Assembly: GCA_019054805.1 (NCBI GenBank)
Contig: JAHQIY010000008.1
Coordinates: forward strand, 1,845,501-1,909,500
Reading direction: 5' to 3'
DNA length: 64,000 nt
Origin: Brachionus manjavacas
Lineage: Eukaryota > Rotifera > Eurotatoria > Ploima > Brachionidae
In this document: positions 5,439 through 62,719 of the stretch, piece after piece
Numbering within the stretch: position 1 is the first letter of the stretch
How the letters are laid out: each line of letters opens with the position of its first letter
Notes under the pieces: model-generated
Databases searched by the model: none
Told to the model about the DNA's origin: nothing
What the model saw: the letters and a program-made list of their open reading frames with translations, nothing else
Made by a program: the position numbers and the translations under genes

Positions 5439-5447
5439 GACAAGATT

Positions 5448-5807
5448 GGTTTTGTGAAATTCGGTATAAAATGAAAAAAAGGACAGAAAAAATGTAAAAA
5501 ATTGAATAACTTTTTTCCTAAAGGTTTAAACTTAGTTCTGTAAATGCAACATAGTGCAACACTCAAAGTTGCACCAAATATCAAGGTTTGCTAAATTTAC
5601 AGATTTAAGCAGAAATTAAATTTCAATACAATTGAGCGTAGTGCATTTTGCAGAGATTTTGCACACCATTAGTAGACTTTTACAATTTTGCAACCTTGAA
5701 TGTAGCACCACGTTGCACTCTTAGAGCTAATTTTAAACTTTTTGAAAAAAAGTCATTTAATTTTTTCACACTTTGTTATGATCTTTTGTACTGAATTTCA
5801 CAAAACC
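5448..5807. mobile_element. Palindromic MITE, 9-base target duplication (MULE- or Merlin-like)
   Basis: The element starts GGTTTTGTGAAATTCGGTA and ends with its inverse, TACTGAATTTCACAAAACC. The terminal inverted repeats extend imperfectly for about 125 bases. The nine bases GACAAGATT flank both ends (5439-5447 and 5808-5816), a perfect target-site duplication. A 9-base duplication with GG termini fits Mutator-like elements (8-11 bases) or Merlin (8-9 bases). There is no transposase, so it is non-autonomous. Relatives lie at 13998-14155, 39601-39675 and 58512-59038. Confidence 0.85.
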
Positions 5808-13997: not shown

Positions 13998-14155
13998 GAT
14001 TTTGTGAGGTTCAGTACAAAAGAACAGTACAAAGTTTAAAAAATTAAATAACTGTTTTACTAAAAGTCTAAACTTAGTTCTGTGAATGCAGAATGGTGCA
14101 AAATTCAAAGTTTCATCAACTTTAAAAGTCTTCTAATGAAATCTCTGCAAAAAAA
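13998..14155 (+). mobile_element. Left-end fragment of the GGTTTTGTG MITE family
   Basis: Starts GATTTTGTGAGGTTCAGTAC and follows the left arm of the 5448-5807 copy, including CTAAACTTAGTTCTGTGAATG. It then stops without a right arm. It sits about 130 bases beyond the 3' end of REEP5. Confidence 0.75.
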
Positions 14156-23543: not shown

Positions 23544-24850
23544 GGCTCTTTAATATCTAGGCCATAAATTTAGAATAAAATACCCCAAATTTAAAATTTT
23601 TTACCCCAATTTTTTAATAAAATACCCCTTTTAATTAAGTAAACCATAAAAAATTAAGATTTACACCTAATTAAATAAGATGTTACTTTTTCTTTTATTT
23701 TGACACTAAATCAATTAAAACTACACCTAATTAATTAAAACGAACTCTAGTTTATTAAAATGAAACCTAAATTTTTTGACACTTTTTTAATAAATATTTA
23801 AAAAATATTCCTATATAAGAAAATTTTAAATTCAAAACGTTTTGGTTTGATTCCATTTCTAAACGAATGTCGAGATAATATTTTGAAAGAATGGTCAACT
23901 GAACGTGCACCTACATTATCATTGATTGATCCAGAAACAAATCAGCCTCAAATCGTTGACAACTTAAATCAAAAAATATTTTATGAATTTCCAAATGTTA
24001 CAAAGGATGACTTAGTAAAAGCTTATAAATGGAACAGTTATAACAAAACAATTATTCATTTGAAAGATGATAATTATTATTATTTAACTGCTGATGACAA
24101 GATAGATATCAACAAAGAACAATGTAAACAATACAATCAGTCATTAATTGAAAAAAATGGTTTTCATTCGATCATATGATTACTTCCATTTTTAGTATTC
24201 GTAAAATTAAATTCAATGAAAATAGTTGGACTTTGAGTAGTTGCAATTGTTGGTATTGGTTAAAAAATTACAAATGTTATCATCTTACAACTATTGCAGC
24301 AAGAAAAAAAATGCAATTTCGACTCAGTTGGTATGGATATACCTATACAAGCCAATAGAAAGAAAGGAAGGCCAAAAGACACAGCTGGACCACTTGAACA
24401 TCAACCGAAAGAAACACAAGCAACAAATTCGGCACCTAAAGGGATTGATACAGATGATGAAGATTCGAGTTCGACAAAAGAAAATCCATCAAAAATACCT
24501 CGAATTGATTCAATCAAACAAGTCGAAGAAAAGTTTTGTGATAAATGTGGCGCTAAAATGACTAAAAGAAGATATTGGGCTTGCTCAAATAAATGTGGAA
24601 AAAGTAAATTTTTGGGGTAAGTATGCTCTGAATTCGACTAAATTTTTGGGGTTAAAAATAATAAAATAGTTCATTTTTATTAATTTTGGTATTTTTATAA
24701 TTAATTTGGTGTCGATTATAAAATAAAATTGTCATTTTATTTTTTTAATTTCTTTTTTATTTTTTGGTGTTATCTTAATAAAATAGGGGTAAAAAATTAA
24801 AAATTTGGGGTATTTTATTCAAAATTTGGGGTAATAAAACTAAAAAAGTC
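23544..24850 (+). mobile_element. Mutator-like (MULE) element with SWIM transposase remnant
   Basis: Nine bases, CTAGAAATA, flank both ends (23535-23543 and 24851-24859). The inner ends are related inverted repeats (GGCTCTTTAATAT at the left, GACTTTTTTAGTTTT at the right when inverted). These lead into repeated AATAAAATACCCC and TTTTTTACCCC subterminal motifs on both sides. Inside, plus-strand frames 23847-24179 and 24176-24620 carry the C-terminal part of a MULE transposase. A SWIM zinc finger (SSCNCWYWLKNYKCYHL, CxC...CxH) is followed by a basic GRPK tail (RKKGRPKDT) and a short C..C...C..C motif near the end. The catalytic DDE core is absent and the frames are interrupted, so this is an internally deleted relic. 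Age looks moderate because the target duplication is still perfect. Confidence 0.85.
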
Positions 24851-36915: not shown

Positions 36916-39900
36916 ATGAAAATTTTTAATTTTGTAATTCTCATTGTTGGAATTAATTGCCAATATTCGAACTTTTGCTCTGACGATCCTCGATGCAGAT
37001 GTCACTCAATAGTCAGTAGTTGTACCAGAGCTGGTCTAAACCGGGTTCCAAAAATTCAGCAAAATTCAATTATATTGTAATTTTTTTTTCATTTGAAAAA
37101 TAAAAATATTAAATTTCATATTTTTTCTAGTGATTTACGCGAAAATTTTATCACCAAAATAGATTATGGAATTTTCTTTAGCCTAAGAAAATTAAGATCT
37201 TTGTAAATAAAGTTTTTTTTTCTTTTTAAATTTATTAAATTAGAAAATAATTGCTTATTGTTAAGATTTTTGAGCAACAATCGAATTACTGAGCTTGAAG
37301 CGTATGCTTTCGTTGGGCTTGATGAACTAAAAGATCTGTAAAAAATGTCTCTTTTAAAAGTTGGCTAAAATTTATTTTTTTTCAATAGTCACCTTTATGA
37401 AAATTCGATAGAAAAAATTCATCCATATGCGTTTTACAATCTCAATAATTTAGAAACTCTGTATAAATTAATTATTTTTTTATTAAAATTTTTTGTCAAT
37501 TAATTGATTAATCTTAGGTATCTACAACAGAACCAAATAAAAAAACTAGACGCTAATACATTTGATAATTTGCTCAAACTCGAGCGCTTATTATTGACTT
37601 CAAATTTGATCTCAACATTTCAAGAAAACTTAGTCAAACCACTAATTAATTTAAAATCACTGTATGTGTTTTTTATTTTTATAATTTAAAAAATATTAAA
37701 ATAATTTACTTAAGCCGCTTGGATGATAACCGATTGAACTGTGATTGTGATATGTATTGGCTTTGGAAAGCAATTGAGCCTGTTTCCTATCAATATCGAG
37801 TATATAATTTTAGCATTAGCGCTTCGTGCTTTACTCCTAACGAATTGAGAAATAAAAAATTGTCAAGTTTGAGCAAGCTGGATTTTAAGTGTATCGAACC
37901 ATTGATTGTAGAGGCGCCAAAAGATGTAGAGAACAGCTGGAACAGTCTAAACAGCCAGGTGCAATTTGAGTGCAAAGCAATTGGGTATCCAGTTCCAACA
38001 ATTCAGTGGTTTAAAGAGGGGTAGGTTGATCACGAGCGATTTACGGAAATACATTTTTTATTTAGACGTAGACTTTTTTCTGACAAATATTCGATTTCTG
38101 ATCAAGGCAATTTGATAACAATACGAAACGTGAATGAAAATGATGCTGGAATATATGAATGTCATGCATCCAGTGATTTTGGCCAAGCAAGAGCTTCGGC
38201 AAATTTTAAAATAACCCATGACTCATGTAATTTGAAAATAAAATCTAAAATATTCTTATTTAGACAAAAAAATTTTAGTCGATGAATTGGAATTTAAAAA
38301 TCAGCATCAAGCAAATAAATTAAACAATTTTATAGTGGAAAATGACATCATAATTCTTGATTCGAATGAAATACAGAATCAAACTCCATTAAGTCGCTAT
38401 TGTAAGAACTTTTTAAACTTTTAAAATCATAATTTATAAAATATATAAAGTTATTTCAAGAGAAGATATTACAAGATAATAATTTATAAAGTTTTTAAAA
38501 CACCATAGACTCTTTATTAGTACATTTTATCAATTTAAGAATAATCTAAAAATAAGACTGGAATTTATTAATTTTTTAAAGTGAATTTAAAAATAATTTA
38601 CTTGGGTCGATAAAAATTTTAAATTTGAATTTTTAAATTTTTATTAGGGAAAATTCAAAATTACGGTCTTATTTTTGAATTATTTTAAAAATTCATTCAG
38701 AGAAAATCCCAATTCAAAGTTACCTCTAAGTGTCCTGATTGACAGCATACAGCAAATTTTGAATTTAATGATTTTCTTTCATAAAAAAATTGGGTTAGTA
38801 GTTCTGGGTTTTTGTTTTTGAACAATGATAAATAGGGTCTAAGCTCTTTTAATATTGAATTGAAACTTAAATCTAGAGCCTCAAAAAATGATCCAAAGAA
38901 TCAACACACTTAAATTCTTGAAAATTTAATGTCAGTTGTAAACATCCTTGAAAAATCTTTTAAATTATTATCCCATGACACATTGTCGAAATTTAAATCT
39001 TTTATCATTGCCTTGAAATATTCTATAGAGTCACACTCTTGAATCAAGTTAAAAGTCTTAGCTGGGTTTCTATTTTTTTTATCGGCGTCATGGATAGTGT
39101 CGTCGAAATTTTTCTCCAGAAGACTTGTTGAGCTTGAATTTTTTAAAATTTATTGAGATTTTATTTTTACACTTAAATGTATTGTTTTATATCTTATTTC
39201 ATGACAGAAAAATTTAGTGTCGAAATTATCAATCAAGGTTTATTTTTAATATTTGAGCTTCTTTTAATAAAAATAGTCCCAAAGTTACAAGCTTGTTTAT
39301 ATTTTATTTGAAAAGGTTTCAATTTTTTTTAATGTTTAATTGTTATTTTTGGGATATTCTATTTTGTTTTGGGGTATTTAATATTGGTAGACAGCCTATT
39401 TCAATATTTGTCTTTTAAACTTTCTTTACATTTTTTTAGCTTTTTTACTTTATTTTTATTTTATCTTATAAAATTAACTTTATTTTTATTCTTTTTTTTC
39501 TTTAATTTTTTCTGAACTCTAGCTCGGTAAGAAAACAAATAAATAAATAATAAAATAAATAAATGTTCAAAATTTGGGGAATTGTTTTGAGTCAGCCCTT
39601 AAGAAAAAAAGTTATTCAATTTTTTAAACTTTTTTTCTGTTACTTTTATCATTTTGTACTGAATTTCACAAAACCATTTGGATTCAAATTTTAACTCACA
39701 AGATAATTAAATTTAAACATTAACTTAAATAATTCTAAACTCTATTTAAATTATTTTTTAATTTAAAAAAAAGAGTTTTTAAAAACTTAATAAAGAAATT
39801 TTATTCGATTTTAAACAATATTAATTTTCAGACAAAGCCTTAATTATTTTATTTTTTAAATTCAAAATTGAATTGAATTATGATTCAAATTTTAATTTAA

Positions 39901-42900
39901 ATTCAATTATTATTCTGAGTTTAAATCAAAACTCAAAAAAAAAAATTGTTTAAATACTGTCTAAATTTAAAAATTTTACTTAAAATTTATATTTTCAGTT
40001 TCAATTTTAATAATTAAGCACTATTTTTTACTAAAAAAATAATAAATATAAAAAAAATAGAAGAAGAGTTGATAGATATTAGTTATTCTTTAAAATAAAA
40101 ATATTAAATCTATCTTCTCTTGTAATAATATCCATAAGTTGGATAACCATAACCATATCCGTAGTCACACAGTCCGTAACCATAGCTCGGATTACCATAT
40201 ACGTGACCATAGTTTATTCCGTAATCATACAATCCAAAGCCATATCCACCGTAGCCATAACCAATAGATCCCTTTAACCAACAGTTCACTTGGCGAAGCT
40301 TGTTAACTATTTGTTTGCTTTTGGTCAAATAATTCTTGCAAATTTTCTGATTTTAATTTAGAAACTTTTGGTTCAGCAAGTGTAGTAACAAATGCTATGG
40401 CTACTACTGATAAGATGATAAAGTGCAAATTAAAAATTTCGAGATCATTTTCTGGTAATTTATTGAATTAAGAAAATTCACTTTTTTCTCTTAAATCACA
40501 AATTTATACCTTTGAAATCAATTTTTTTGATCTAGAATAAATTTCATTTTTATAAGGACACAATTTTTCTAAAAAAATTTTTTCAAGTTTTCATTTATTT
40601 TTATCAAAAAATTTGAAAGCCCTGACCTTGAATTATTTAAAAAGAATTATATCAGTGAAGGCGAATGTGATTATCTTTTGTCTCTTGTTTTTGTTTTAAT
40701 AACCAGAATTGTAATCATTTACAAACACTTTTTATCTATATTAAATGAAAAAATTTATATATTAAATTTTCAAGCAAGCGATTTGTCTTTTTTAACGATT
40801 CCCAATGACCTGACAGTCACAGAAGGCAGTACAGTCACATTTTCTTGTCAATCTAGTCGATATACTGACCGAGTCACTTGGCTCAAAGTAATTTAAATAT
40901 AAAATACCATTTTCATTAATTATCAATGCCGAAAAGGATGGAGTAATTATTGAAAACAATTATCATTTTAGAATTAAATACAATGGAGATCTAGAAATTC
41001 AAAGAGTATTGGCTGAAGATGAAGGATTTTATGTTTGCTCAATTGGAAACAACGATAATATCAAATACGCTCAAGCAAAACTTACAGTAAATAGTAAGAA
41101 TATATAAGATTTGGATTTTTAAAGCTAATATAATCATAATTAAATTTTAAGTCGCTGCTTCATTTATAAAAAGGCCGGTTGATGTCACTGCAGTTGAAGG
41201 AAACTACGCTGAATTCTATTGCAAAGTCGCAGGAAAGCCGGAACCCAAAGTTATGTGGAAAAAAGATGGTAGAAACGAAAAATTTTATTTTTTATGTAGA
41301 AAATTTTATTTAATTTAAGGGGCAACAATTGAAAAAAAAAATAATCAAAATTTGATTCTATCAGATTTTGAATTCTATCAGAATAATGAATTATTACGCA
41401 TCAAAAACTTAAATCAAGTAACTCATTCTGGTTTGTACACTTGTGTTGCAGTTAATGCAGTTAATACTGTATCTTCCAACGCTTTGCTTCAGATAACTCA
41501 AGCAGGTAATTTGACAAAAATTTCATATTTTGTTACTTACAATTTAATTTTTGCGCGAATAATTTTGTGACTAAATGATGAAATTTTCATAAGTTTAATT
41601 TCTAAATAAATTAATATGAGGTTTAATCGTAGTTAATATTAGGATCGCTCAAACAATAATAAAGTAAAATAATACGACTTGTATTTAATGATCAGTATTT
41701 TAAATATTTGGATCTGTAAAATTTACCAGTATGATATAAATATGATCAGCATTTAATTAAAAATTAAAGTAAATAATTTAAATGATCAGTATATTTGATC
41801 AATATCCGGTTGATCAGGAATTAAAAGTGTCAATCAGTATTTTATTGACATTATCAGTATAATAAATAATTTATCGGTGATATACTAGTAACGATTGTTA
41901 TTTTAATGAAAATGATAATGTTTTTTTTTTTATTTTTAATGTGAATTCGCTTTTAAACTAATTTAATCTCTTTTTCATGTTTTTATTTTTATCCAATTTT
42001 ATTCTATCATCAAAATTTATATCAATTTTTCTTTTTAATGCGGGCTCAAACGAAGGTCTTGCACCATTCGAACGTGCCCTGGGATCACCCCCTAAATTAT
42101 TTTATAAATAAATGAATAATAATAAAGATAAGAAAAAGAAGACTGCTTTAATTGAATGCCTTTAGCACTATTTTTGCAACATTACAGCGACAAAATGTTC
42201 AAATAAATATAAAGTTCACGAAATTCAAAACTTAAGTGCTATCTGAATTTCACATTTTTGACTCAAAATTCGTAATCTACGCCCTCAAAAACCCCAAAAA
42301 ATTTTTTTGAAGGGGGCAAAAAGAAAAATTTTTTACACCCAGGGTTCCAAAAATAGCAAACCCTTTAAAAAGTTGTTGTTCTTTAAGACTCAAAATCTCA
42401 AAGATAAAACTTAAATATACTAAAAAAATATATATATTCTGAAAGAGCATAAAATTCTCTACATGCTAATGTAATTTAGAAAAGAAATAAAAGGGTGTGG
42501 CGGTTTTTGTTGGCTAAAAAAAGGAAAAAAATGTGTTTTTTCTGGATTAAATCGTATCTCCTCCGAGGGATCAATTATGACTCGATTTTTTTTTTAAATC
42601 TAGACAAAATTCTGAACAATTCTATGGTTTTACTTTTTTATTTTATTGCTTTATTTTTCTTAAAAAATCTCTTCAAATCATGCGATAATTAACAAATTTG
42701 TATATTAATATTTGTATATATGATATTTTTTTTCTAAATTTTACTAAAAACTTATCTTAGTATAAATAAAATTTAGTGAAAAATGCCTAAAAAATTAAAA
42801 TATAATCAATAATCAATCTCGCGTTAGTTACCTTGGAGTTTTCGGCCAAAGAAAGAGATGATGAAGATGATCACATGGAAATAGACGTTGAACCCGATAT

Positions 42901-45900
42901 AAATAAAAATTACCATGATTTTTTTTACTTCATCCGAATCTTCAAAGGGTTTGCTATTTTTGGAACCCTGGGTGTAAAAAATTTTTTTTTGCCCCCTTCA
43001 AAAAAATTTATTTTTTGGGGTTTTTGAGGGCGTAGATTACGAATTTTGAGTCAAAAATGTGAAATTCAGATAGCACTAAAGTTTTGAATTTCGTGAACTT
43101 TACAAAAGATGACAAACAATTCATTCAATCGCCCACAATGGAACCAAAAAAATGGACTCAAGTCAATCATTGGGCTAAATGCAATAAAACAATTACCTCG
43201 CACGTGTTTGAAACCTCAAAAGAATACTACATACCAGCTGGTGAAGAAGAAATCAGAAATGTGAAAGAAATGCATTGGCACTTTTTTCCAATGCAAAAAG
43301 AGAGCTTTCGCTGTTTGAATCATGACTCTACCAAATTGAGATGATATGGCAGTCAATTGGAAACAAGGTAAATGTCCATCCTTTTTCGAGCAATAAGATT
43401 ATAATATGTCAAACCACCATAAAAGTAGCAAAAAAGTACTAATTGGTGAAAAACGTTAAAAAGGATGGCCAAATAAGGCAACAAAAGCTTTATTAAATGA
43501 TTAAAATTCCTTTTTATTTATTTGACTGTTTGTTTTTTTTAATCAATAATACTTTAAATTACAAATTAGTAGATTTTACTTTTAATATTTAAATTTTATA
43601 TGACGTCATATATATCAAATACTGATCAAAATAATAAAAAAATACTGGTCAAAATATTTATTTTACTAATCAATTAATATATTGTCAAATAAAACAAGCA
43701 TATTTAATGAATAAATTTATTTTTAAGATAGGCAGAGTTAAAATTTTGGAAAAATTGATTAAGTTTTATCCAAAAAATTCTTTAAATTTTCGACTTCATA
43801 ATTTTTTTTTATTTGTGCACCATTTTTTATTAAAAAAACTTAGTTGAAAAAAAATCTAAAGCTCCTTCAAAAAAAATTAAAAAAAGTTTGATTAAGTTAA
43901 AGTATACTATGACTTTTTGTAATTAAGTTTTCACTTCAAATAAGCGTGAGAATTTTCTTTGACTATATTCGCTAGCACAATTGCACACAACGCATTGAAA
44001 ATGATATTTTTACACTTTATATTTAAAAAGAATATGATATTAGCTAAGAAATTGAACCTTGAAAATTTCTTAATTCTATAATTATGTTCAGCTTTTTAAT
44101 TAATTCTTTTAGAATTTTTTGAAAAATCAAATTTTTTTGTAGCTTCAAAGCTTGAATATTAACTTACTAAAAGTAATTGAAAATATCTAGCATCAAAAAT
44201 TGTTGGATTTTTTACTAAATTAGCCTGGTATCAATTCCCATAGCCTAAAATAAGGGTACCGATTCCTTTAAATATTTGCAATTATTTACGAATTTAAATT
44301 CTTATTCCCAAGCGTATCCCATTAAAAATAAAATAAAATAAAATAAAAGATTTATTTAAATAATTTTTATTCCAAACTAGAATTTTATTTTAAGTGAAAC
44401 CATCTTTTAAAATAAGTCAACAAAATGTGAGTGTATACGAAAACCAGTTGACTACATTCGAGTGCTTTGCCGAAGGTAAGCCCAAGCCCCAAGTTTTGTG
44501 GTACAAGAATGGTCAACGCATAAAAACTGACTCTCGGGTTTACTTTGACTCGTTCGGATATTTGACTCTGACCCAGGTCCAAGTAAACGATGCCGGTGAT
44601 TACATTTGCCGCGCGGAAAACATCGCTGGTTCAGCGGTCCACAAATTTACCCTGAGTGTTAAGGACATTTACGGAACAGTGATCTCAGACGCTGTTATAA
44701 CTCAAGCAGTGGCAACTGCACGCAAACAAGTCAACAAACAATTTCAAAATTCCTTGAATAGGCTGCTGAAAAGTCGCAAGCCAAAGACCCACTCAGAGTT
44801 GATGGCTTTGATTCGCTTTCCCAAAGACAGTACCCTTCATCTGGCATCAAGTGAAGAAATATACGAACGTGCTCTGGATATCATATTCCGCCATGCGGAC
44901 AACATCACTTTTAATCTAACACAAAGAAACTTTAAAACCCAAGACTTGTTAACTCATCGTCAATTGCAGCAAATATCCGATTTGTCCGGATGTTCTCGCT
45001 ATAAACGTAAGGTGAACTGCTCACAACGATGCCTAAACTATCGCAGTTTTGACGGCACATGTAACAATCTGAAAAATCCAAGATGGGGTGCAGCAAACAC
45101 TGCTTTGAGGCGTTTGGCGCCTGCCGAATACGAAAATGGCTTTTCTACGCCTAAAGGATGGAACAGGTCAATGCTTTACAATGGTTATATGCTGCCAAAT
45201 GTGAGAGATGTGACCACACGGCTAATAACTACAGATAAAATAACCACTGATGAAAAGTTTAGTCTCTTATTGATGCAATGGGGACAATTTTTAGACCATG
45301 ATTTGGGTCATACTGTGATGGCCATTAGTTTGAATAGATTTAGCAATGGAATAGCTTGTAGAGATTCATGCACAAATGAGCCACCGTGCTTTCCCATTGA
45401 AGTACTTCCGAATGATACACGGAGGAATCATTTGCCTGGTTTATGCATGGAGTTTATAAGAAGCTCGGCAATTTGTGGTTCTGGTGAGACCAGTTTACTC
45501 AGTGGTAATGTTCATCAGCGTGAACAGATAAATCAGCTAACTGCGTTCATTGATGCTTCAAATGTGTACGGAAGTAGTGATCAAGATGGCTTTGACATTA
45601 GGGAGAGAACAATTAACAATGGCAAACTGAAGGTTCATACGACGCCCAGTTATCCCAAAGGTTTTTTGCCGTTTAATTTAGATACACCGATGGATTGCCA
45701 CAAAGATAATAGATCTACAGTTGGATGTTTTATGGCTGGAGATTATAGGGCAAATGAACAACTGGGTCTTTTGGCAATGCATAATCTTTTCGTAAGACAT
45801 CACAATTATATGGTAGACAGACTTAAATCGGTCAACCCACATTGGCTTCCCGAACAATTGTACCAAGTAAAAATTTCCTTTGCGTTAATTTTTTTTTTCA

Positions 45901-48900
45901 TTTTCAGTCTCTCTTTTTTTTTAATTGAACTTCTAAAAGTTATTTACTGATTGTATTGTAATTAATTGTAAAAGACTATTTTTTTAATTTAAATAGGCTG
46001 ATAATGTAATCATGTAAAGTATTCCTCGAAAAATATTTTTTTTTTAGATTATTTTTTAATTTCTGCTTGATATTTAACTCAAAACTATTTAATTATTGTT
46101 TGTTTTTGTTGAAATTTTTCAATTGTCTTTTAATTAAAGAATACGTTTATTTTCACGTAAATTATCTGTAAATAAACAAAAAGAAAATCAGATAAAATAT
46201 CTGTAAGTGAATTAAAAAAAAAGTTTATTTTCAGATAAAAAAAAAGATTAATCAATTAGCACATTCATTACAAATCCATTTCTTTTTTTTTGGAGCATAA
46301 GTTCTATCAACACATTTTAAATGAAAAATACAAGAACAATTATCACAAACTATATTCTTAGACTCGGTTCCACTCATTGAATAATTTACCCTAATTTCGG
46401 CTAAACAGCCACATGGGTTAATATAGCTTTGTTTGGGTCGTATACCAGTACTCTTTGATGTTATATCATTTATCTCCCTGTGATGGATACACTTGATTTC
46501 AAGATATCTAAAATTGTTGTCTTCAAGTTTTCGGCTACTAACGGTTGTCCAAATAGAATAGCTTTGTTTCGAATATTCATTTAAAGTTTGGATAAATTCG
46601 TCAAAGTTGTTGAAAAGTTGTCCAAGATATAACTTTTCAGAGATTTTTTTTCATAAGTTGTAAGCGTATTAAGGTAGTTTTGTTTATGATAAGTAAAAGG
46701 AGTTAAGTAAGAAACAAGTGCATTTTAAATAAAGATTTAGGATTAATTTTTAATTATGGTTTCACTTAATTAATTCGGCTTAATCAATTTGTTTCAATTA
46801 TTATGGTCTTTGAATTGTTTCTATTTTTATTCTTTTGATTATTGACATTTACGTGAAAATAAATAATTTTTTCATTCAGGTTAAAAAATAAAAAAATTTA
46901 TTTACAGGTAAATTACTGTTTCTAATATTGTTTATTTTCAGATAATTTATCTGTTCTAATTCTTCATTATTTTGAAAAATTTTCTAGGTCCCCTTTTTAA
47001 GATTAAATGATAGATCTACTCACTGGAATGTTTTTTTGTAAAATTTGAATGAAGCAAAAAAATTTGGATTGTTTAAAAACTGCAGTTTATTCCATATTCA
47101 TTAAAATATGGGAAAGAAGTCGATTGTTTTGGAGAATATATGATTCTTCGGTAAATATTTAAGTCGAATCCTATTTTATTTTAAGAATCAATGCAATTCA
47201 GTTGAATCTCAAGCAGTTAATTATATTAACTGAAAATTCAATAAATAAAAAAGCTTTAAACTTGAGGATATTTTTTTAAAATCATCCTCCATTTTTAATA
47301 GTTATTTTTATTATATTTAAATTTGAATTAAACAAATTTGCTAAATCTATTTTATAAAAAAGCTTAAAAAATTATAAAATCTACAAAATTCAAAGAAAAG
47401 CTTTAAAAGAGACTATTTTTGACCCTTTTATAATTTACGAAAAAAGAATTCAATTTTTTTTTTCATTATTAAAGTGATTTTAATTTTGAAATAGTGAATG
47501 AAGTTGGAAACTTTTTTATTTGAAGTAGAAGAATTTTTATTTAATTGAATTTTTGCATATCTATTTGACCAAAAATACAGATCTAGATTTTAAAATAAAT
47601 CACAACTGTTAAATTTTTTGTTGATAAAAAAATTAAAAGGACAAGATTTTTTAGTATTCGTTATTCTGGTAGAAAATGGATTGAAAAATCGATTTTCGAT
47701 TCGAAACTGTTGACTAATACATATTTGTAAAAAAAATTAGTTGTTAAATTTTTTCCAGCATTCTGATATAACTCAAAAAAAAATTAAATTTTAAAAAATA
47801 AAAAGTAAGATAAAAATATCAAAATTTATCAAATGAATTTTAGAAAAAGGTTTTAGTCTTTTTGATTTAATCAATTTACTAAGAATTTTAATTTGAATTT
47901 TTTAATGTTTGATTTTGATTCTCAATTGACTAAAGTTTTTATTTTTTCTACAGAATCTTCTGTCCGGATTTTAGTGACAACCAGAAATTAATTTTTTTCC
48001 TTTCTTGAGGTCAAATATCCTTGCAGATTTCCAATTTTAATTAAAAACTCATTTTTTCATTTAATAACATTAAGGCAGCAAAAAAATTGTCTGGAAAAAT
48101 TTTTTCAACATATTAAGATTAAATTTAAAATTTTAATTAAAAAATGTAGTCTTGATTTTAGTTTGGAAAAATCTAAAATAATATTTTTAACAAGGAAACA
48201 AGAAAAATAGTTGGAGCTCAGATGCAGTACATTACCTATGAGCTATGGCTTCCTTATGTTTTGGGTCAAATTGGTATGAGACAACTTGGCACTTACAAAG
48301 GCTATGATCAGAACGTCGATCCCACAATGACTAATGAATTTGCCACAGCTGCTTTTCGGTAAATTTAACTCGCCATTCAAAAAAAATTTCTTTAAAACAA
48401 TTCAATAATTCAAGTTTTGGTCATGCTTTAATCCAGCCTTTTACATTCAGACTAAATGAAAGCTTTCAGCCAATACCTGAGGGAAACTTGCTGCTAAGAG
48501 ACTCTTTTTTTGCACCTGAGAGATTATATCACGAGGGTGGAATAGACCCCATTCTACGAGGTCTGTTTGGGGTAGCAGCTAAAATAAAACTTCCGCGTGA
48601 AATAATGAACAGTGAATTGACCGAAATGCTATTTCATGTATCTAGAACAATTGCACTGGATTTAGCGGCTTTGAATATTCAGGTAAGCTTAAAAAAATTT
48701 TATAAAATAGGTTAAGACTCATTTTTCGTCTAATTTAAATTTTAAACAAATGTTCACATTTTATTTTATTTTAAAATGTGAATAAGATCAAATTAAATGC
48801 GATTTATTTGTTATCTCAATTTAACTTCTCAGTTTGTATTTAAGTAATTTTAACTTAAAGTCAGAGAATAAACTTGACTAAAAATAAATTTAATTAGAAA

Positions 48901-51900
48901 TAAAATGAATTTCTTTCAGAGTTGTTTAAAAGTCTTTAAAAAAAGTCCAAGTCTTTAAAAAAAAAGTCAAAGTCCAGACTTTTTTTTTTTATTTTCTTCA
49001 AAGTCCAAGTCAGGACTGGTTCAATGTGTTTTTACCATTTTTGTGGTCTATTTGCTTCAGGCCAACTTTTGTTCCATTTCATACGCCAATTTTTGCTAGT
49101 GTTGGATACGGTCAAAACAAACCGGTCCATTACACGGACGATTTTTTAAACAATAAAATAAACAGTCTGAATTAATCGGGCGGCAAAAAAGCCGGCCAAC
49201 ATTTAGGAAGGCGGTCTTTCAGCTTGGCAGTCAAAATTGTGGACTGCTAAGCTGAAAAAATATAAAAATAAGATAATAAAAAAAAATCAAAGTTTTTGGT
49301 GGTTCTTATGAAAAAAAAAAAAAAAAAAGTCTTGACTTGGACTTGACTTGAGACTTGTGACTTTTAAACAACTCTGATTTCTTTTCATTTTAGGGTTGAT
49401 CATATTTAATAATGACGAATCTATTTGTGATATCCGTATTTTAATAAAATACCAAATTAATCCAATTTTCAAAATTAAAGAAAAATGCTCTTTTAAACCA
49501 GACTTGGGAAAAAGTCAAAATTTTTAAGCCATTTTAAAATCTACAAGTCAAGTCATTTAACAAGATTTTTTTGAAATTAAAAGGGCTCTTAAAAAAATAT
49601 ATGAAAAATGATTAAATATTTAGAGATCGATCAAGATAAATTTTAGTCGATTTGAAAAATTACATTAGTAAGGCTTTCTATTTTAGGGTTAAATCATTCT
49701 AAACTTCAAATATACAAGTCAAATGACTTGACTAAACTTTGACTTAATAACTTTTGAGTAGCTCTGTTTAAAACAATTTAGCACAAAATTGATTAAAACC
49801 AACATATTAAAGAATAAAAAAAAAACAGAGTTGTTTAAAAGTACCAAATTAAAGTTCAAGTCATTAAAAAAAAAGTCTAAGTCCGGACTTTTTTTATTCC
49901 CGTAAACACTCGATAATTATCCCGGTACAATTCCCATATTTTTGAATTTATGCGAATGTTATAATAACCCATTTTAATTTTTTTAAAAAATTTTAAAGTC
50001 TGGACCTCAAAAACCTGATTTTCAATCAACATCTGGCTTAAATTTAGAACTAAACAGGTCTAAAATCAAAATTGTACCGATCTAATTTACCTCCCAAAAA
50101 TGGGTTATTATAAGATAAGCATAAATTCAAAAATATGGGAATTGTACCGGGATAAGTATCGAGTGTTTACGGGAATAAAATTATTCAAAACTGAAATTAA
50201 TCTTTTCTTTAAAATCTAAATCTCATTCTGCAAAATGGTTTGGTATTTTATTAAAATACGGATATCACAAATAGATTCGTCATTATTAAATATGATCAAC
50301 CCTAAAATGAAAAGAAATTCATTTTATTTCTAAATAAATTTATTTTTAGTCAAGTTTATTCTCTGACTTTAAGTTAAAATTACTTAAATACAAACTGAGA
50401 AATTAAATTGAGATAAACAAATAAATCGCATTTAATTTGATCTTATTCAAATTTTAAAATAAAATAAAATGTGAACATTTGTTTAAAAATTGAGGCTGAA
50501 AATGACTTCAAAAAAAATCCAGGGACAATTAGTGAGATTAAGTCAAATTTGAAATTGATTTTGAAAAAAAAAGTTTGATCCAAACAAACCTAATTAGGCT
50601 AACTTATCTTGACCTAAAGCATCTGAATAAAATAAAAAGATAATAGCTGTCAGTAATCAAGGTGCTGGCCTTTAACTGTGTGAATTCCTAGGGTTAAGAG
50701 GTAAATAGGGTTTCACCCCTTGATTCCGAGAATTCATCCAATTAACGCCAAAAATAACCCATTTGACCGATTTTAACCCGTTTGCCCCAAAATATCGTAT
50801 TATGTTAGATCTGGGATTTAAATAAATTTTATTTTTTGAGAAATTATTCCCTGAATTTTAAATTTCAAATCTTCATAATTAAATAAAACTCTTAAGAAAT
50901 TTGAAAAAAATATTGAAAATTCTTTTTTTAACTTTAGAATAATTTATTTATTTTTTTAACTGGACCGAGCTAATGGTCCTTCAATATAAAAATATATGAA
51001 AAAAAACTCAAATAATTCATTTAGATTTTTAAATCTATATTAAATAGTTGAAAAACTGGGTATTGTGAAAAATATTCTTGACCTCAGGTTTTTTCAATAT
51101 TTTTTTTTTTTATTTTTTTAAATATCAAAAATTAAATCTCAATTTCGTTTATTCAAAAATTATTTTTTAAAATTTGTAAAAACTAATTGTGAAATAGTTA
51201 AATCCATATCGATTAAAAAAAATTTTTGATGAAATTAATTTTTTTATTCCTTTTGAATACAAAAAGAGTAATTTTTATAAAAAACTTAAATTTTCTAGGC
51301 AATCGGGTGAAAATCCGGCTAACCGTGTTAATATGCGTGGCAATCCTACTAAAAAATGTGGAAATTAGGTTAACCCTATAAACTCAGTTGCCCCTTACCT
51401 AGTTTTAACTATAAAATTGCAGTTACAACATAATTTTGAATTTAAATTTAATTTTAAAATAGTTCTAAAAGATATAGATGCTTAATAAAATAAGAAAGTT
51501 TGAAAAGTAAAATTGTTTCTTTTTTAGAGAGGGAGAGATCACGGAATCCCGAGTTATGTAAAATACCGACAAATATGTAATTTAAGAGAGGCTAGAAATT
51601 TTGATGATCTACGAAATGAAATATCTAGCAAAGAGGTTCGAGATACATTAAAAAAAATTTACAAAGATGTCCGCAATGTTGACTTATGGGTGGGTGGTAT
51701 GCTGGAAGATGTAGTGGATGGTGCCAAAATGGGACCTACATTTTTGTGTATAATAGCACAACAAATGAAAGCATTTAGAGATGGAGATAGATTTTGGTAT
51801 GAAAATCCGACTCAATTTACACCAGAACAGTTAGCTGAAATAAAGAGAACAAGTTTGGCAAAAATCATCTGTGAAAATGGTGATAATATTGATCATATTC

Positions 51901-54822: not shown

Positions 54823-57800
54823 TTATTTATTTTCAATAAAGTGAAATTCTTTTGGATCTTTATTAATCATTTTTAGCAAATAATTTTCCATATTTCCAAG
54901 TTCACTATACATTTTGTTAATAACAGATCCGACTTGGTTCTCTCTGTTCTTAGTGGTATCCAATAGAGTCGCAAGTCTATTGACCAGATCATTATCTTGC
55001 TCTTTGAAAAAATCCTTCAACTCTTCATCGGACTTCCAGCCGCTTAGCAATTGCTGGTGCAGTTTTTGATACTCGATCTCTAATTCATCTTGGGTCGTCA
55101 AATGATCAACTGCAAACTTATCCATGTACTTAAACTCGGGCTCAAATGCTTGTATCACCTCAGCAAATTTATTGTTTTGATCCTTGATTGTTTGCATCTT
55201 TAATCCAGTCTTGAGAATTTTATCTTCCAGCTCGACTGATTCTGCCTTTTGTTTTTTCATTTTTTCCAATGATTCAGCTCTTTTTGTCTCGAGAACAAAT
55301 TCTAACTCATCCTGAAATCAAAATTAAATTTCAAAATATTTTCTTCAAATATAAGTACCCTCGAATCATTATGTTCCTTTATTTGCTGTTTGACTTGGAT
55401 AATTTTGTTTTCAAAATTATTTTTTCGTGTTTTGGCATCTTCAGATAGATAAATGATATTTATGGTATTTTTGGTATGCCAAAAAATTCACGTTTTCTAA
55501 TTTTTTAAACTAAAATTTTACCAAAAAATAATTCTGTATTATTTTTGCATGAAATGGTTCCCAGTTGGGACAAATGTATCTTCAATTAAAAAATCATGTT
55601 TGCTTTATTTTAAAATAATCCGAATGCATTAAGGTCTAGCTGTTTTCTTCTGGCTAGAATTTAAGTGAGGTCTCGTGCGTTTATTTTTAATTATTGATGT
55701 TTGTGTGTATGTATAAATAAAAAGATCAAAAGAGGTTATTTAAATTGAATTAAAGAATTCAAAAAAATTAAATGTAATAAATTTGCTTAGCAATTCGATC
55801 CAAAATAATAAACTAACTAAAAAAACGCAAATTTTTTGTCGCCCTCTAAAAATTAGTGCCTTACTTATCACAGATTTTCGCGTTTCTTCATAATCTTTGC
55901 ATTTGTCTCTATAAAGTTTACATAAGTTCTTGTACTTAGGCTCCAATTCATTTAGTTCAATAAGATTTTTGTCATTTTCAGTGGTGTAAAAGCTATATTC
56001 TTTTTCCAAATTGCTCAAATTAGCTTCCAAATCTGATTTCATTCGGCCATAGATTGTAATAGCTTCATCCACTTCAGTTGTCAACCTATTTTTTTCTTTA
56101 TCATTATGATTAATAATTTCATTCAATGATTTTTCCTAAAACAACTTTAAACTTTTTTATCTAAATTTTTGATAATTTTAAATTACTTTTTGCTGTAGTT
56201 CGGTCGTTCTGCTTTTATTTGAATTCATAAAAGTATCAACCGAAGATTGAAAAATAATCAAATTGGCATTAAAAGCCTCAATTTCGCCCAATTTAGCTTC
56301 ACGCTCAGCTTGTTTAATCAATCGTGTCTCTCTTTCATGTTTTAGTTGATCTTTACACTGCTCAGCTTCTCGCTGCAGCGAATCCATTACTTGACTTAGT
56401 AAAAAGTTAACTAATTTATTTAGAGAGTTTTTTTTTTTAAATTATCTTTATTTTTTAATTAAAAAAATTAAAACTTAGTATTATTTTTGAATGATTTTTT
56501 GGGAACCGTTTTTGAAAACCATTAAAAAATGGAGAAGAAACTGACACTATAAACAAAGGCGTATTATTTTTTAATGACTCTAATTTATTAAAAATAATTT
56601 CTAATTTTATCACTAATTTTACTTAAAGATCTTACTTTTAAAAATAACATGCCAAAATTTCTTATTCTATTTAATAAAACTAATTAACAATTCTCTCAAT
56701 TCTCTTATTAAAAATATCTTTAAAGTCTAATTGTATTGCATGCTAAACAACGATGTTTTTTCCTATTTCTTTTAGGCTTTTGACATAAAAAAATTAAATA
56801 CCTAAATCAATAAATAGTGAAATTTTAATTTGATTTTATAAATCATTTAAATAATTTAAATGTCTAGCCAAAACACGTTTTTTAGTATAATAAAATTACT
56901 GCACTTACTGAGCTTCTTCATGTTCGATATCTTCAGATTCGCTAAGTAATTCCTGTTTAAAATCATTTAATTTAATATTTTGATTTTTAGAAAAGAAAAT
57001 TTTGATTTAAATTATTTTTATTCAAACCCAAGAAAAATAAATAAGTATTTGAGAGTTTACCGATAAAGAAATAAATATAAATTTTAAACAAATAAGGTTT
57101 ATAAATTACAAAATGAATAACTTCAGCACTTTTGGATAGAATGATTCATAAAACTACAAAAAAATTAAATTCTAATCAGGATTTTCCAAGTTAATTTTAT
57201 GGTCCAGGAATGAATGTTCCAAACTAGACCAATTTAAACAATACAAACATTTTAAATTAAAATCTTAAATCGAAATTGAACAAAAAAATTTAAAATTAGC
57301 TTTGCAGATTTTAATGAGTAGATTACTTACTCAAAATAAAAAGACTAAAACTTTAAAAGGTCTTATCAAAAATTTAATTTGATTTTTCGAAAAAATTCTT
57401 AATAATTATTATTCTGATTTGTTTGCTTTTATTTAAAAGCTTTACTTTTTTCACTTAAACAAAAATGGTCCTAAATATAAATCTAAAAAAGCTTAATAAA
57501 AGTAAAATTATGAAGTAAAAAAAGAATTGATACAAAATACGAAATATTTTTTTTAATAATGGACATGGGGCATAGGGCAATATGAAAAAATATCAAAATT
57601 TTGAATTCTACGATATCTTCCTAAGAATTTGACGAGCTGAACCCAAAAATATCAAAAATCTGAAAATCGGAATTTTAATTTCGTTTCTAAAGATATTTTT
57701 ATTTTTTGTAAAAAAACGTTTTCTTAAGGCTTTTTCATTTTCAATAATTGAAGAATCATTTTCGGAAATCGGACAACTTGTTCTATTTTGTTTTAATTTT

Positions 57801-60800
57801 TAAATAAGAAAATAAAGTATTAATTAATGAATTTTTTCACTCATTCATGCATCAAATTTTTTTCATTTTTAATTTTTTTAATATTTAAAAAAAATTAGGC
57901 ATTGTGAATTTTTATACAAAAATTTAGTAAAATTTAAAAAATAAAATTCTTTTTCATCAATTCAAATTGATAATATTGAGCTTTTTAAACTTTGATGATG
58001 AAACAATATGAAACAAAATATGTTTCATTAAATTGAATCAACAAAAATTAATTTTAATTAACAAGGGAATATTAAAGATCAATTAAAATATTAATATTTT
58101 TAAATTTTTTCAAATTTAAATGTTAAAATTCTGTCATAGCTACTTAAACATTGTTTAAAAACAACTTTTAATTAGTAAGCTATAATTGTAAAAATTTTAT
58201 TTTTTAGTAATAAAAATAGAATTTAAAATAGAATTTTATTAAAAATAATCAATTTATTGGCAAATATCACTTTTAATTTTTTCCTTAAACTGGACTGTTA
58301 AATGAAACATTGATCGTTTCACCTTTTTAAAACTTACAGAAAAATCTGAAACACAAAATCCATATTTTTATTAAGAATTTAAAATTTTGTGTTGGAATCT
58401 TTGTATGAAAATTTACAATGCCAAAAAATTGAGCAATTTTAGTAAACAAAATTATGGCACCTTCTTTTAAAAATAACAGATTGAAAAATATTCTCTAGAA
58501 TTAAAGAATTTGGTTTTGTGAAATTCAGTACATAATGAAAAAAAGGACAGAAAAAATTTAAAAAAATTGAATAGTTTTTTTTCTAATATCAAAGGCTGCT
58601 AAATTTGCAGAGTTATGCAGAAATTAAATTTCAATAAAATCGAGCGTGGTGCATTTTGCAGAGATCCTGCACACCATTAGCAGACTTTTAAAGTTGATTC
58701 AACTTTAAATGTTGCACCATGCTGCATTTACAGAATTTATTTTAAACTTTTAGATAAAAAGTTATTCGATTTTTTTATATTTTTTCTGTTCTTTTTTTCA
58801 TTTTATTCTAACTTTTAAAAGAGGAGGCTATGAAAGCTGAAAGTGATGGGTTTGATCCAAGAGACATTCAACATTGTGACAATCTGGCTCAAATTTTACA
58901 AGATTTAGTACTACATTTAACTCTTATTATTTTTATTTTCTAAAATTTTTTTAGGAATTCAGTATAAAAAAAATGCATGAAGAATTAGAAACCGAGACAA
59001 TAAAAGCAAGTGTTTTTAGGCATGTATTTCACAAAACCAAAGAATTTTGATAAAAAAACATCAAAAAATATATAAGTTACTTATTTTTTTTTCAGAAATT
59101 TTTTAATCGTATTAAATATGTATTTCTGACAATGACTTTTGATCAACTAAACTGAAGAGCCAAATAATCTGGCAACAATAAAACATTTACGGGTACCCTA
59201 TGAATACCATATTTCTAAACTTTTTAAAATCAAGACATACCTATGAGCTTGTTGATTTTCTCCAAGCTGAACATAAAGAGCTTGATTTTTTTCTTCCAAT
59301 TCGGCTATTTCTTTGTATTTTTCACCAATTTCAGCTTTGATGCCATCGATAGATTTTTTAATGGCATCATTAATTTTTTGTAATTCTTTAAATCTGTCAT
59401 AAATCTGCTTCAATTCAACTTTTTTACTCTCCTGCTCTTCTTTGAGATTTTTAACATTCTCAATCTCTTCGGTAGTTTGTTCAGCTGTTTCTTTAGTTTT
59501 TCTAATGGTATCTGTTTTATTTTGGTTATAATCTTGCTGAGTTTTGGCCTCTAAAGCAGTTAGTCGTAAACTTTCGGTCACCGATTCTTCATGTTCTCTT
59601 TGGTTCCGCTCAACCTGCTTAGTTCCATTTTTAATTTCAGATTTCAATTCTCTATTTAGCTGCTCATATCTCTCATTTTCTCTAAATAATATTCGAACAG
59701 ACTTGTTGCTTTCCTGTACGGCTTTTTTGGCGGCTTGAACTTCTCTGAACAAGGCATTTAATTCAACAATTTATCTTTATCTTAATTACCTTAATTTAGT
59801 TTGATTAAACTCTTCTTGTTCCATTGCTTTGGCATTTGTTTCCCTCTAGTTCATTAATTTAGAATACAATTTCTGATTTTTTTAAATGATTTTACTTTTT
59901 CATCATCTAGTCCAATTTTGATATCGCGAGCCTCAGCCCTCTCTTTTATCAATTTTTCATTCAAGCTTAGCATATCTTCTTCTAAATCAAAAATCTAAAA
60001 GCAAAGATTGATAAAAGTTAACAAATTTTGTTTTTTTACAGTCTGATTAAGTTCTCTTAATAGATCTCTAGTTTCATTTAATCTTATTTGAGACAAAGCT
60101 TTGTGGGCCATTTGGTCATTTAACAATGTTATGATGTTTTCATGCTTGGTCTCCAACGAGCGTTTTTCTGGTCTTGTAAAATTCATAAAGTAAATTTTGA
60201 CCGCTTTATAAAAATATTACTCCATTTGAGCAATTTCTTCAGACAACTGCTTGTCCTTTTTATGCAGGACTTCTATTTTTTTTGTCAATTCTTCTAATTT
60301 GTTCTTAAGGTCTAAAATTGCTTCCATGTTTGAATCTCTTGCTGCTTTCACATTTTCTTAAATAATTTTTTTTATCTAAATTTATTTAACAACTAGCAGC
60401 TTTTTATTTACCGCCAATCTCTCGCTGTAAATCGGACTCAAAGAAGGTCATTTTATGCCTAAAAACACTTGCTTTTATTGTCTCGGTTTCTAATTCTTCA
60501 TGCATTTTTTTTATACTGAATTCCTAAAAAAAATTTTAGAAAATAAAAATAATAAGAGTTAAATGTAGTACTAAATCTTGTAAAATTTGAGCCAGATTGT
60601 CACAATGTTGAATGTCTCTTGGATCAAACCCATCACTTTCAGCTTTCATAGCCTCCTCTTTTAAAAGTTAGAATAAAAAAAGTATAATCAAATTTTTTTG
60701 TTGGTAAAAAAATGAAATTTATTGCTTTCGGACGGGTGTTCAAAAAATCCACAAGTTTTACAAGAAAAAAAAATTGTTAATCAAATTTTGTACAAAATTT

Positions 60801-62719
60801 AATAAATGCTCGATTTTAATAAAATAAAAAAAATCTAGTTGTTTCTTGATTTTTTAACAGAAAAAGATATGAAAGCTTTTACCTATAAATGAAACCTGTC
60901 CAATTTTTATCTAGATAATAAAATTATTTAATACCTAATTTAAAGAGCAATAATTGCTGACTTTTTATTTAATAAGATAATTTTTTTTAAATCTTTATAT
61001 TTTGATTCAATCAAATTTCAGTTTTAAATTTTCTATTAAAAAAAAACAGCTATTTATACTATTGTATTATAGAATATATTTATCCTAAAAATTATCTGAA
61101 TATTTTTTAGATATAAAAAATTTTAATAAAGTTCGATTTTTTTTCAAATTTAAATCAGAACTATTACACGTGGTAATTAAACTTTATTTTTTTTTAAACT
61201 ATTTTAAAAAAATTATGAATTTTTTCAAGAAACTTTTACTAGAAATATTGATTATTATTTAGAAGTTATTTTCAGCCCAACTCAAAAAAATGATTTTGGT
61301 AACATGTTTAATGACTTATTAGTCACAAAACGTAGAGAAGCGAAGATAATATATTGTTTTATCAAAAAAGGCATTATTCGCAAATTGCGAATATTAATAT
61401 ATAGGTGAAGGCTGACAAACCAGAAAAAAAATATGTCTCTGACTTAAATATTTAAAATGGATGAGAAATCAAAAATAAAATTGAAAACCAGTGAATTAAA
61501 TATATAAAAAATTGAAACTAAAAAGTTCAAAACCTATTTTTAGATAATAAAATAGAAAATGAAAGTGGATCAAAAATATTTGGTATAAATAACCAAGATA
61601 TTTTACCAAGATAATCATTCAAATTAAAATAATTCAATTAAATAATTAAAAATATTCAATTAAATTTTCTAATCTAATTCTTAAAAATGACTTCAAAATT
61701 TACATTGGCATTTTTAGTTGTTCTCTTGTCAAGCACAGCTGTGCTGAGTACTTCCCTTGGTGAAAAACTTCAATCAACTGGTCTTAAATCCGAATCAAAC
61801 AATTTGCAGTCTTCGTCAGGAAATCTTCAAGGAGCATTTGGATACGGTGGTGGCTATGGAGTGTATGATTATGGTTATGGCTATCCAAGCTACGGATATG
61901 GTTTGTATGACTATGGAATAGGTTACGGTGTTTCTGGATATGGTGGTGGATATGGTTACACATATCCTAGCTATGGATATGGATACGGTTATGGCTATCC
62001 AACTTATTACAAGAGAAGATGAACTATTTAAATCTCGCACAGATTAGATTAGTTTTTAATTTTTTTGTCAGCTTTTATTTGGTTTAATAATAAAATTTTA
62101 ATGAAACATTTTTTGGTTTCAATTTTATTAAAAAAAAAGTCAAAATATTCACAGCGTCAATTTTCAATAAATCGAGAAAAGTTAAATTCAATCCGATTGA
62201 ATTTATTTGACAATATATTTTTCCATTTTACCTTTCACAGTAATAAAGGATATAATATAGCTTATTCTAATAAAACGTTAAAACTGTTTTGAAGTAAATT
62301 AAACAAAATTTTAAGAGCTTCTTATTCAAACATTACTTAACAATAACACCTTTAAATCCTTTTTAAAAAACCAAGAATAAATCAAAAGCTAATAAAAAGC
62401 ATCCTAAAATAAATAAGTAAAAATTAATTCAATTAATTCCTGAAGCTTAAAAGATATAAGCATTAAAAATTAGATATAATCTGTTACATAAAAAAAGATA
62501 AAGTATTTTTTTTAATTTTTATTAGAGATTTTATCAGGCTTGCCTTTTTATTTAATTTTTTATTTTTAACTGTCTGAACACTTTTTTCCTTCAATTAATA
62601 AATTTAAAAAAATCCCCTTTGAGATTCCATTTTAAGTTTTTTTTTCTAATCTTCCGATAAATAAAAAAATTACCTAATTGTTTGAGGTAGCTAAGGGCAT
62701 TGTTGACAATCATAGACAT
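54823..62719 (-). CDS. Long coiled-coil protein, tentatively CCDC175-like
   Basis: Exons recognised: 62719-62674, 60657-60572, 60523-60412, 60356-60221, 60172-60040, 59994-59896, 59845-59790, 59744-59241, 56952-56909, 56394-56187, 56135-55865, 55438-55359, 55311-54823. Phases agree except between 59241 (phase 2) and 56952 (phase 0), so at least one exon in that gap is unseen. About 755 residues are covered. Nearly the whole protein is predicted coiled coil rich in Glu, Lys, Gln and Asn, with no membrane or signal segment. N-terminal blocks (LEFSIKKMHEELETE, MTFFESDLQREIG, then a run ending LNEKLIKERAEA) resemble, from memory, the order seen in human CCDC175, a little-studied testis/cilium-associated protein. 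That assignment is tentative. The last exon has a less repetitive segment (LLSGWKSDEELKDFFKEQDN). An AG lies one base before the ATG. Intron 1 contains the gene at 61687 in antisense, and the big intron contains a MITE with a copy of exons 2-3. Confidence 0.8.
58512..59038 (+). mobile_element. Gene-capturing MITE (Pack-MULE-like) with a piece of the coiled-coil gene
   Basis: Same family as 5448-5807. The left end is GGTTTTGTGAAATTCAGTAC and the right end is GTATTTCACAAAACC. The nine bases AAAGAATTT flank both ends (58503-58511 and 59039-59047). Within the right arm, about 15 bases from the terminus, lies 58801-59023. This 223-base block is an inverse copy of 60455-60678 of the same gene: all of exon 2 with its acceptor, the 48-base intron and 60% of exon 3. 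Differences are a single-base T-run indel and essentially nothing else that I can see, so capture was recent. The intron is retained, so capture was at DNA level. There is no transposase. Confidence 0.92.
61687..62022 (+). CDS. Secreted Gly/Tyr-rich peptide (GYG repeats)
   Basis: Single exon, 111 residues. MTSKFTLAFLVVLLSSTAVL is a clear signal peptide. A short Ser/Asn/Leu linker (SLGEKLQSTGLKSESNNL) follows. The rest is imperfect repeats of GYGxYDYGYGYPSYGYG, ending [12 protein letters not shown]. Gly/Tyr-rich secreted peptides of this kind occur in invertebrates as antimicrobial peptides (for example the nematode NLP/CNC group), cuticle proteins and mucus or adhesive proteins. Which applies here cannot be told. 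The gene lies antisense inside intron 1 of the coiled-coil gene. A broken paralogue lies at 40110-40448, also antisense in an intron. A TATA-like TATAAATAACC lies about 100 bases upstream of the ATG (near 61583). Confidence 0.85.
   Translation: MTSKFTLAFLVVLLSSTAVLSTSLGEKLQSTGLKSESNNLQSSSGNLQGAFGYGGGYGVYDYGYGYPSYGYGLYDYGIGYGVSGYGGGYGYTYPSYGYGYGYGYPTYYKRR

Follow-up and report, generated by a model that had tools for sequence, protein, structure and literature searches.

A short transposon in an intron of a predicted gene of the rotifer Brachionus manjavacas carries, inside its right terminal repeat, the first part of that same gene in inverted and near-identical form. We consider it probable (roughly 0.8) that this resident element was patched in place by local gap filling from the gene in which it lies, and that it is therefore a single-copy Pack-TIR. 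The evidence comes from a window of 64,000 nucleotides (contig JAHQIY010000008.1, positions 1,845,501 to 1,909,500), within which all positions below are numbered (Table 1). In the order of events that we infer, a short non-autonomous DNA transposon with a 9-bp target duplication would already have been lodged in intron 7 of the minus-strand gene, its arms able to fold into a hairpin, when a break or a stalled fork arose in its right terminal repeat, about 24 bp or less from the tip. Template switching would then have brought in 224 bp, in inverted orientation, from a donor about 1.4 kb away at the 5' end of this gene, and rejoining would have cost the element about 10 bp at most. Whatever the cause of the break, such gap filling in place would yield a Pack-TIR.

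The element is 527 bp long, or 304 bp without the copied stretch, and it begins and ends with the tip GGTTTTGTGAAAT (58512-58524 and, inverted, 59026-59038). It has the features of a MITE, being short and non-coding, with terminal inverted repeats, a target duplication of fixed length, and a family of two complete and two partial copies in 64 kb. Within its arms, 58534-58586 pairs with 58750-58802 at 47 of 53 positions. The window has five exact occurrences of the 13-mer of the tip, two bounding this element, two bounding the complete family member at 5448-5807, and one at 39663-39675. When up to two mismatches are allowed, the motif is no commoner than chance (11 occurrences against a mean of 7.98, with at least 11 in 20 of 100 shuffles); the case thus rests on exact paired ends and on longer similarity within the family. 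The element matches 5446-5521 over 77 bp (89.6%), 5577-5787 over 212 bp (81.1%), 39676-39602 over 75 bp (86.7%) and 14138-14018 over 121 bp (82.6%). The complete member at 5448-5807 aligns with its own reverse complement at 68.4% identity over 377 columns.

The first-pass annotation had described a MITE-like element with family-specific ends and a perfect 9-bp target duplication, and both descriptions hold. It had also tied its capture model to the presence of such a duplication around other copies, and this check is passed: 5448-5807 is flanked on both sides by GACAAGATT, so that a perfect 9-bp duplication surrounds both of the only two complete family copies in the window. The empty site that corresponds to the insertion at 58503-59047 would read TTAAAGAATTTTG. 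None of the 24 window ORFs of at least 90 aa touches any of the four family copies. A 20-base pattern from the tip has no exact match in viral contigs, and the eight bacterial-contig matches to a 19-base pattern share just 19-25 bp at the tip and nothing longer, which we attribute to chance. A literature search with the letters of the tip returned matches that are unrelated by title.

Table 1. Features of the element, its family, the copied stretch and the predicted host gene.
Feature	Position	Strand	Basis or remark
MITE-like element with copied gene stretch	58512..59038	+	13-bp perfect tips and family copies in the window
Left 9-bp target-site duplication, AAAGAATTT	58503..58511	.	Identical to 59039-59047
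Right 9-bp target-site duplication, AAAGAATTT	59039..59047	.	Identical to 58503-58511
Left terminal inverted repeat	58512..58586	+	Pairs with right arm; family matches at 5446-5521 and 39676-39602
Inner part of right terminal inverted repeat	58750..58802	-	Shares its last 2 bp, at the junction, with the copied stretch
Outer tip of right terminal inverted repeat	59024..59038	-	13 bp perfect, exact tip match
Complete family member without captured sequence, 360 bp	5448..5807	+	Exact tips, GACAAGATT on both flanks
Partial family member (one arm)	39602..39676	-	Similarity to element arm
Partial, decayed family member	14000..14152	-	Family similarity
Donor	60455..60678	-	From 29 bp upstream of the ATG to nt 69 of exon 2, with coding exon 1 and intron 1 between
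Inverted copy of host-gene start, intron retained	58801..59023	+	Alignment with donor
Host gene (predicted), 12 coding exons, 732-aa protein	54823..60649	-	Continuous frame over GT-AG introns
Predicted intron 7, 2,299 bp, holding the element	56942..59240	-	Gene model

When 58801-59023 is aligned locally to the reverse-complemented donor (60455-60678), 223 of 224 positions are identical (BLASTN E 1.8e-112). The sole difference is a 1-bp gap in a poly-T run, and there is no substitution in the 224 positions. A gap-free repeat finder reports the same pair as inverted arms of 152 nt (100%) and 94 nt (94%), with inner ends 1,431 nt apart. According to the gene model, the donor comprises 60678-60650 upstream of the ATG, exon 1 (60649-60572), intron 1 (60571-60524) and 60523-60455 of exon 2, that is, 69 of the 112 nt of exon 2 (60523-60412). 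The near-unchanged inverse copy claimed in the first-pass annotation is thus confirmed, intron included. Its description of two captured exons stands as to an intron-retaining gene start, but what was copied is one whole coding exon and part of the next, together with 29 bp of upstream sequence.

The copy has no substitution and keeps the predicted 48-nt intron 1, which argues that it was templated by DNA and not by spliced mRNA; a retrocopy is ruled out by the retained intron. The opposite direction of transfer, in which exons of the gene derive from the element, is also ruled out, since 5448-5807 and 14000-14152, both of which include the right arm, lack the stretch, and since in the gene it forms part of an open frame with splice sites. 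The window has no Rfam match at gathering thresholds, so the stretch is not a known structured RNA. A 25-base probe from it, allowed up to three mismatches, finds just the copy and the donor in the window (none in 100 shuffles), and by this probe and by self-comparison the donor is unique within the 64 kb. The copied stretch also shows resemblance to the element tip. A 10-bp likeness in the copied stretch (GAATTCAGTA), seen by eye, has an orientation unfit for simple strand invasion, and the start of donor exon 2 at 60509-60523 (GAATTCAGTATAAAA) resembles the tip (GAAATTCAGTACAAAA), likely by chance in AT-rich DNA.

The host gene is a prediction whose splice sites were picked by hand to hold the frame open, so that the model consists of the frame and its GT-AG sites. 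As the first-pass annotation proposed, it would be transcribed from the minus strand with the element in one of its introns, here the seventh of a predicted 12-exon gene. Ten of the 11 predicted introns measure 45-514 nt, and the exception is intron 7 (2,299 nt). The frame of 732 codons is unbroken; thus, insertion of the element has not visibly broken the predicted gene. A branch-point-like sequence followed by AG lies just upstream of the ATG as a candidate 3' splice site, with which the copied exons could be numbers 2 and 3, as they are numbered in the first-pass annotation. Should the predicted gene end shortly beyond exon 7, the element would be part of its 3' flank and not of an intron.

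The 732-aa protein looks coiled-coil-like by eye. It has no Pfam match at E 0.01 over its whole length and one weak PDB match (2efk_A, E 0.0091). The peptide of exons 1-2 (60649-60412) matches Pfam Synaptonemal_3 (SYCE3) at E 2.4e-4 with 21.4 bits, below the curated cut-off of 27; with this score, and with the whole protein matchless at E 0.01, we do not name the gene after that family. The window also encodes an animal haem peroxidase with Ig domains, LIM and EMC7 domains and a CEP104 zinc-finger domain, which are the grounds for taking the sequence as animal. It further has two short Gly-Tyr-rich stretches, at 61687-62022 and 40113-40352, one on each strand and both ending in YYKRR.

The copied stretch splits the right terminal repeat at 13-15 bp from its tip: right-arm sequence (58750-58802) lies on one side and just 59024-59038 on the other, which bears out the earlier placement of the copy in the right arm. 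Read inward from the tip, other ends of the family run GGTTTTGTGAAATTCAGTACAAAATGA... or close variants. The right end of this element reads GGTTTTGTGAAAT, then ACATGCC (of which the last five bases are gene sequence), then the gene stretch up to GAATAAAA, and then TGAAAAAAAG. By eye, about 10 bp of element sequence or less is missing, and no breakpoint is farther than about 24 bp from the right tip. The original sequence at the inner junction can be approximated by the element's own left tip, by the 39.6-kb tip or by the 5.4-kb tip, and the bases shared there number 2, 4 or 6 bp, respectively, by eye; among 20,000 random junctions for each, these lengths are reached in 25%, 6.2% and 1.7%. The 2 bp at the outer junction may be either homology or filler. 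Microhomology at the junctions is therefore suggestive, not proven, and depends on the stand-in tip chosen.

These features can be set against the Pack-TIRs of Tan et al. (2021), who report 370 such elements in 100 animal genomes (PMC8277862). By that count, the first-pass impression of few clear animal cases is not supported. Their definition asks for a TIR on both sides with at least 10 bp at each terminus, an insert of 100-5,000 bp, a parental copy that is at least 90% identical, a length ratio of 80-120% and a unique best parent; retrocopies are excluded, as are cases with a transposon within 100 bp of the parental copy (PMC8277862). Here, the tips are perfect over 13 bp on both sides, as compared with copies in the window; an insert of 223 bp faces a donor of 224 bp at 223 of 224 identical positions; and predicted intron 1 is present in the copy. 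Within 100 bp of the donor, self-comparison of the window shows no other repeat at E up to 1e-8.

Among unique Pack-TIRs, 160 of 281 (56.9%) lie within 15 kb of the parental copy, mostly within 5 kb, a bias towards cis donors that Tan et al. take as the mark of gap filling (PMC8277862); the donor here is 1,431 bp away. They report microhomology at one breakpoint or more in 190 of 281 (67.6%), a gap with a median of 4.6% of the element, a median captured size of 224 bp and exonic sequence in 13.4% of Pack-TIRs, and, in primates, 91 of 97 have an orthologous, duplication-free element in outgroups (PMC8277862). Single-copy Pack-TIRs arise, in their account, mostly by transposition-independent gap filling (PMC8277862). 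Our element resembles these gap-filled cases as a short TIR transposon with 224 bp copied, equal to their median, a donor within 5 kb, an intron kept, a small loss of element sequence and a single copy within the window (compare PMC8277862). The complete family copy at 5448-5807, which has no insert, also counts in favour of gap filling. Against it counts the breakpoint near the tip, as Tan et al. find breakpoints skewed to the element interior (PMC8277862). The case further differs from gap-filled Pack-TIRs in general in that donor and host are the same gene, in antisense. One precedent for a shared host and donor is H2BC15, in which an intronic piece was duplicated into the gene's own 3' UTR (PMC8277862).

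In place of a spontaneous break, a transposase that cut the right end, or began an excision that failed, could also have opened the gap. We regard this variant of gap filling as possible but less likely. Breakpoints so close to the right tip would suit it, and exact 13-bp tips with 9-bp duplications in both of the two complete copies allow recent activity of the family, although this is a family without a known transposase and the loss of about 10 bp or less is small against the larger deletions expected after abortive gap repair (PMC8277862).

According to the first-pass annotation, the element captured the exons earlier or elsewhere and then transposed, whole, into an intron of the gene that had supplied them, a sequence of events that we find unlikely. 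The tips and the perfect 9-bp duplication do flank the whole unit, and multicopy Pack-TIRs that moved after capture exist, but in the set of Tan et al. those that moved are always in distal regions (PMC8277862), whereas this element would have needed to land independently about 1.4 kb from its own source. Moreover, the mere 13-15 bp of right repeat outside the copy would probably impair recognition by a transposase, and neither self-comparison nor the probe finds a second insert-bearing copy in the 64-kb window, a weak negative with that scope. Gap filling in place fits the position of the copy inside the right repeat, the nearness of the donor (1.4 kb) and the small amount of element sequence lost.

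Relative age gives a further, weaker indication on the order of events. Outside the copied stretch, the element has singletons in 10 of 142 columns when compared with 5448-5807 and 14000-14152, and in 5 of 76 columns when compared with 5448-5807 and the 39.6-kb copy. This comes to 15 singletons in 218 three-way columns, against 0 substitutions in the 224 positions of the copied stretch. If the singletons arose at the 58512-59038 site, the element would be older than the copy. The other family copies carry as many (16 and 14 of 142; 5 and 5 of 76), so these differences represent normal divergence of the family and may predate the insertion, and we regard them as a weak hint. The donor 1,431 bp away in the same gene is the stronger argument on the order of events.

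As to superfamily, the 9-bp duplication and the terminal GG could fit both Mutator and Merlin. A 9-bp target duplication is typical of Mutator, and the duplication here has that length. The Tm1 elements of nematodes, in the Mutator/Foldback family, also have 9-bp target duplications (PMC3169594). Merlin transposons are described with terminal GG and 8- or 9-bp target duplications (PMC8101967), features shared by the tip GGTTTTGTGAAAT and the 9-bp duplication of our element. Membership of Merlin would further imply a DDE_Tnp_IS1595-type transposase with matching tips, as membership of Mutator would a MULE transposase. No transposase with the tips of the element was identified in the part of the window that was scanned. 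By its target duplication of 9 bp the family also differs from most Pack-TIRs, of which 323 of 370 are hAT or Tc/mariner (PMC8277862).

Comparison can be extended to other systems. Like plant Pack-MULEs, the element has terminal inverted repeats, a 9-bp duplication and a genomic gene fragment with its intron. Pack-MULEs frequently take their inserts from other chromosomes, and a third of them are multicopy (PMC8277862); here, by contrast, the donor lies at a distance of 1.4 kb and membership of Mutator is unproven. Tan et al. found no Pack-MULE in animal reference genomes (PMC8277862), whereas the duplication here fits Mutator or Merlin. The Tm1 Mutator/Foldback elements of root-knot nematodes are likewise animal TIR or foldback transposons with MITE-like members and 9-bp target duplications (PMC3169594), a likeness of description. 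Unlike the family here, Tm1 has a putative transposase, and the word 'captured' does not appear in the main text of PMC3169594. Local and inverted insertions made by template switching (PMC7954356, PMC11724301) similarly paste a nearby stretch at a break or switch. Those of PMC11724301 are mostly 5-34 bp long and come from yeast, compared with 224 bp and a break in a transposon terminal repeat in the present case. Our literature search was not exhaustive, and we claim no priority for the antisense arrangement within one gene.

If the gene model holds, the pre-mRNA is certainly self-complementary in sequence. In minimum-energy folds, the gene-strand RNA from 60700 to 58780 reaches -635.3 kcal/mol with the copied stretch and -331.1 kcal/mol without it, and 223 of 224 donor bases pair with the copy. 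The transcript could thus form a near-perfect duplex of 223 bp, close to the 220 bp or so anticipated in the first-pass annotation, around a 1.43-kb loop that would enclose exons 3 to 7 and what remains of exon 2. Spliced exons 1-2 together with the antisense arm would still fold at a predicted -283.6 kcal/mol. The strength of these folds follows from sequence identity and speaks for capacity, not for use. Our default expectation is that the fold-back is tolerated and mostly silent, because splicing of the 48-nt intron 1 would usually precede transcription of the antisense arm, and because that arm would be removed with intron 7.

The alternative is that the fold-back transcript is a working regulator, with endogenous siRNAs, editing or a circular RNA of exons 3-7 tuning the host gene. 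This is compatible with an origin by gap filling, and the pairing of 223 of 224 donor bases, like the pairing that spliced exons 1-2 would keep with the antisense arm, would provide for it. Such folding is, however, what identity alone yields, and the arms would be separated by more than 1 kb of transcription and several predicted splicing events, so we consider a regulatory role improbable. The same doubt applies to the fuller proposal of a Mutator- or Merlin-type Pack-TIR inside its own donor gene whose duplex lowers or reshapes expression through small RNAs, editing or circular RNA. If true, an accident of repair would have led in one step to a gene that silences itself.

Self-comparison of the window (E up to 1e-8) returned five other pairs of at least 80 bp and at least 94% identity, all five of them inverted. 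The pairs are too few, and partly transposons, and we make no claim that local inverted duplication is a habit of this genome. The stretch 50239-50491 matches, in inverted orientation, 48737-48916 and 49377-49456 run together (97.2% and 100%); two of the five pairs (48737-48916 and 49377-49456) thus seem to go back to a single event that a later insertion has divided. The sequence that splits the original, 48917-49376, has the ends CAGAGTTGTTTAAAAGTC and an 8-bp duplication, ATTTCTTT; presumably it is a hAT-like MITE, whose empty site the inverted copy at 50239-50491 seems to preserve. By eye, the duplication lies between stretches that resemble peroxidasin coding sequence. Another pair, 21712-21949/25176-25412, has inverted arms of about 238 bp that are 94% identical and 3.2 kb apart; no convincing target duplication was found around it, and the ORFs between its arms (23847-24179 and 24294-24620) have no Pfam match at E 0.001. 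The inverted pair 5898-6082/14449-14633 (94.6%) adjoins the family members at 5448-5807 and 14000-14152 and probably represents copies of a dispersed repeat. Repeat copies at 42210-42532, 42941-43102 and 34903-35065 occur in both orientations at 91-95% identity, and the inverted pair 42210-42369/42941-43102 overlaps this dispersed repeat.

Whole-genome amplification yields inverted chimeras between neighbouring sequences, and the copy could in principle be such an artefact of amplification or of assembly, but a chimera should show one junction and run on, whereas here two junctions lie in one transposon with its outer tip and target duplication intact, copy and donor differ by 1 bp, and the second local inverted duplication (48737-48916 and 49377-49456 against 50239-50491) is partly diverged (97% and 100%) with its original split by an apparent later MITE insertion, so that at least one such event looks genuine and we judge an artefact highly improbable.

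The process proposed here, gap filling of a resident element, is known from hundreds of animal cases, and in one of them, too, a single gene is both donor and host. What this locus offers is an apparent example that is clean and young, with the element, its source, both junctions and an insert-free sister copy all within 64 kb. It would also add a family with 9-bp target duplications to animal cases dominated by hAT and Tc/mariner. The locus further has the same exons in both sense and antisense within a single predicted transcription unit; otherwise it is an ordinary repair scar.
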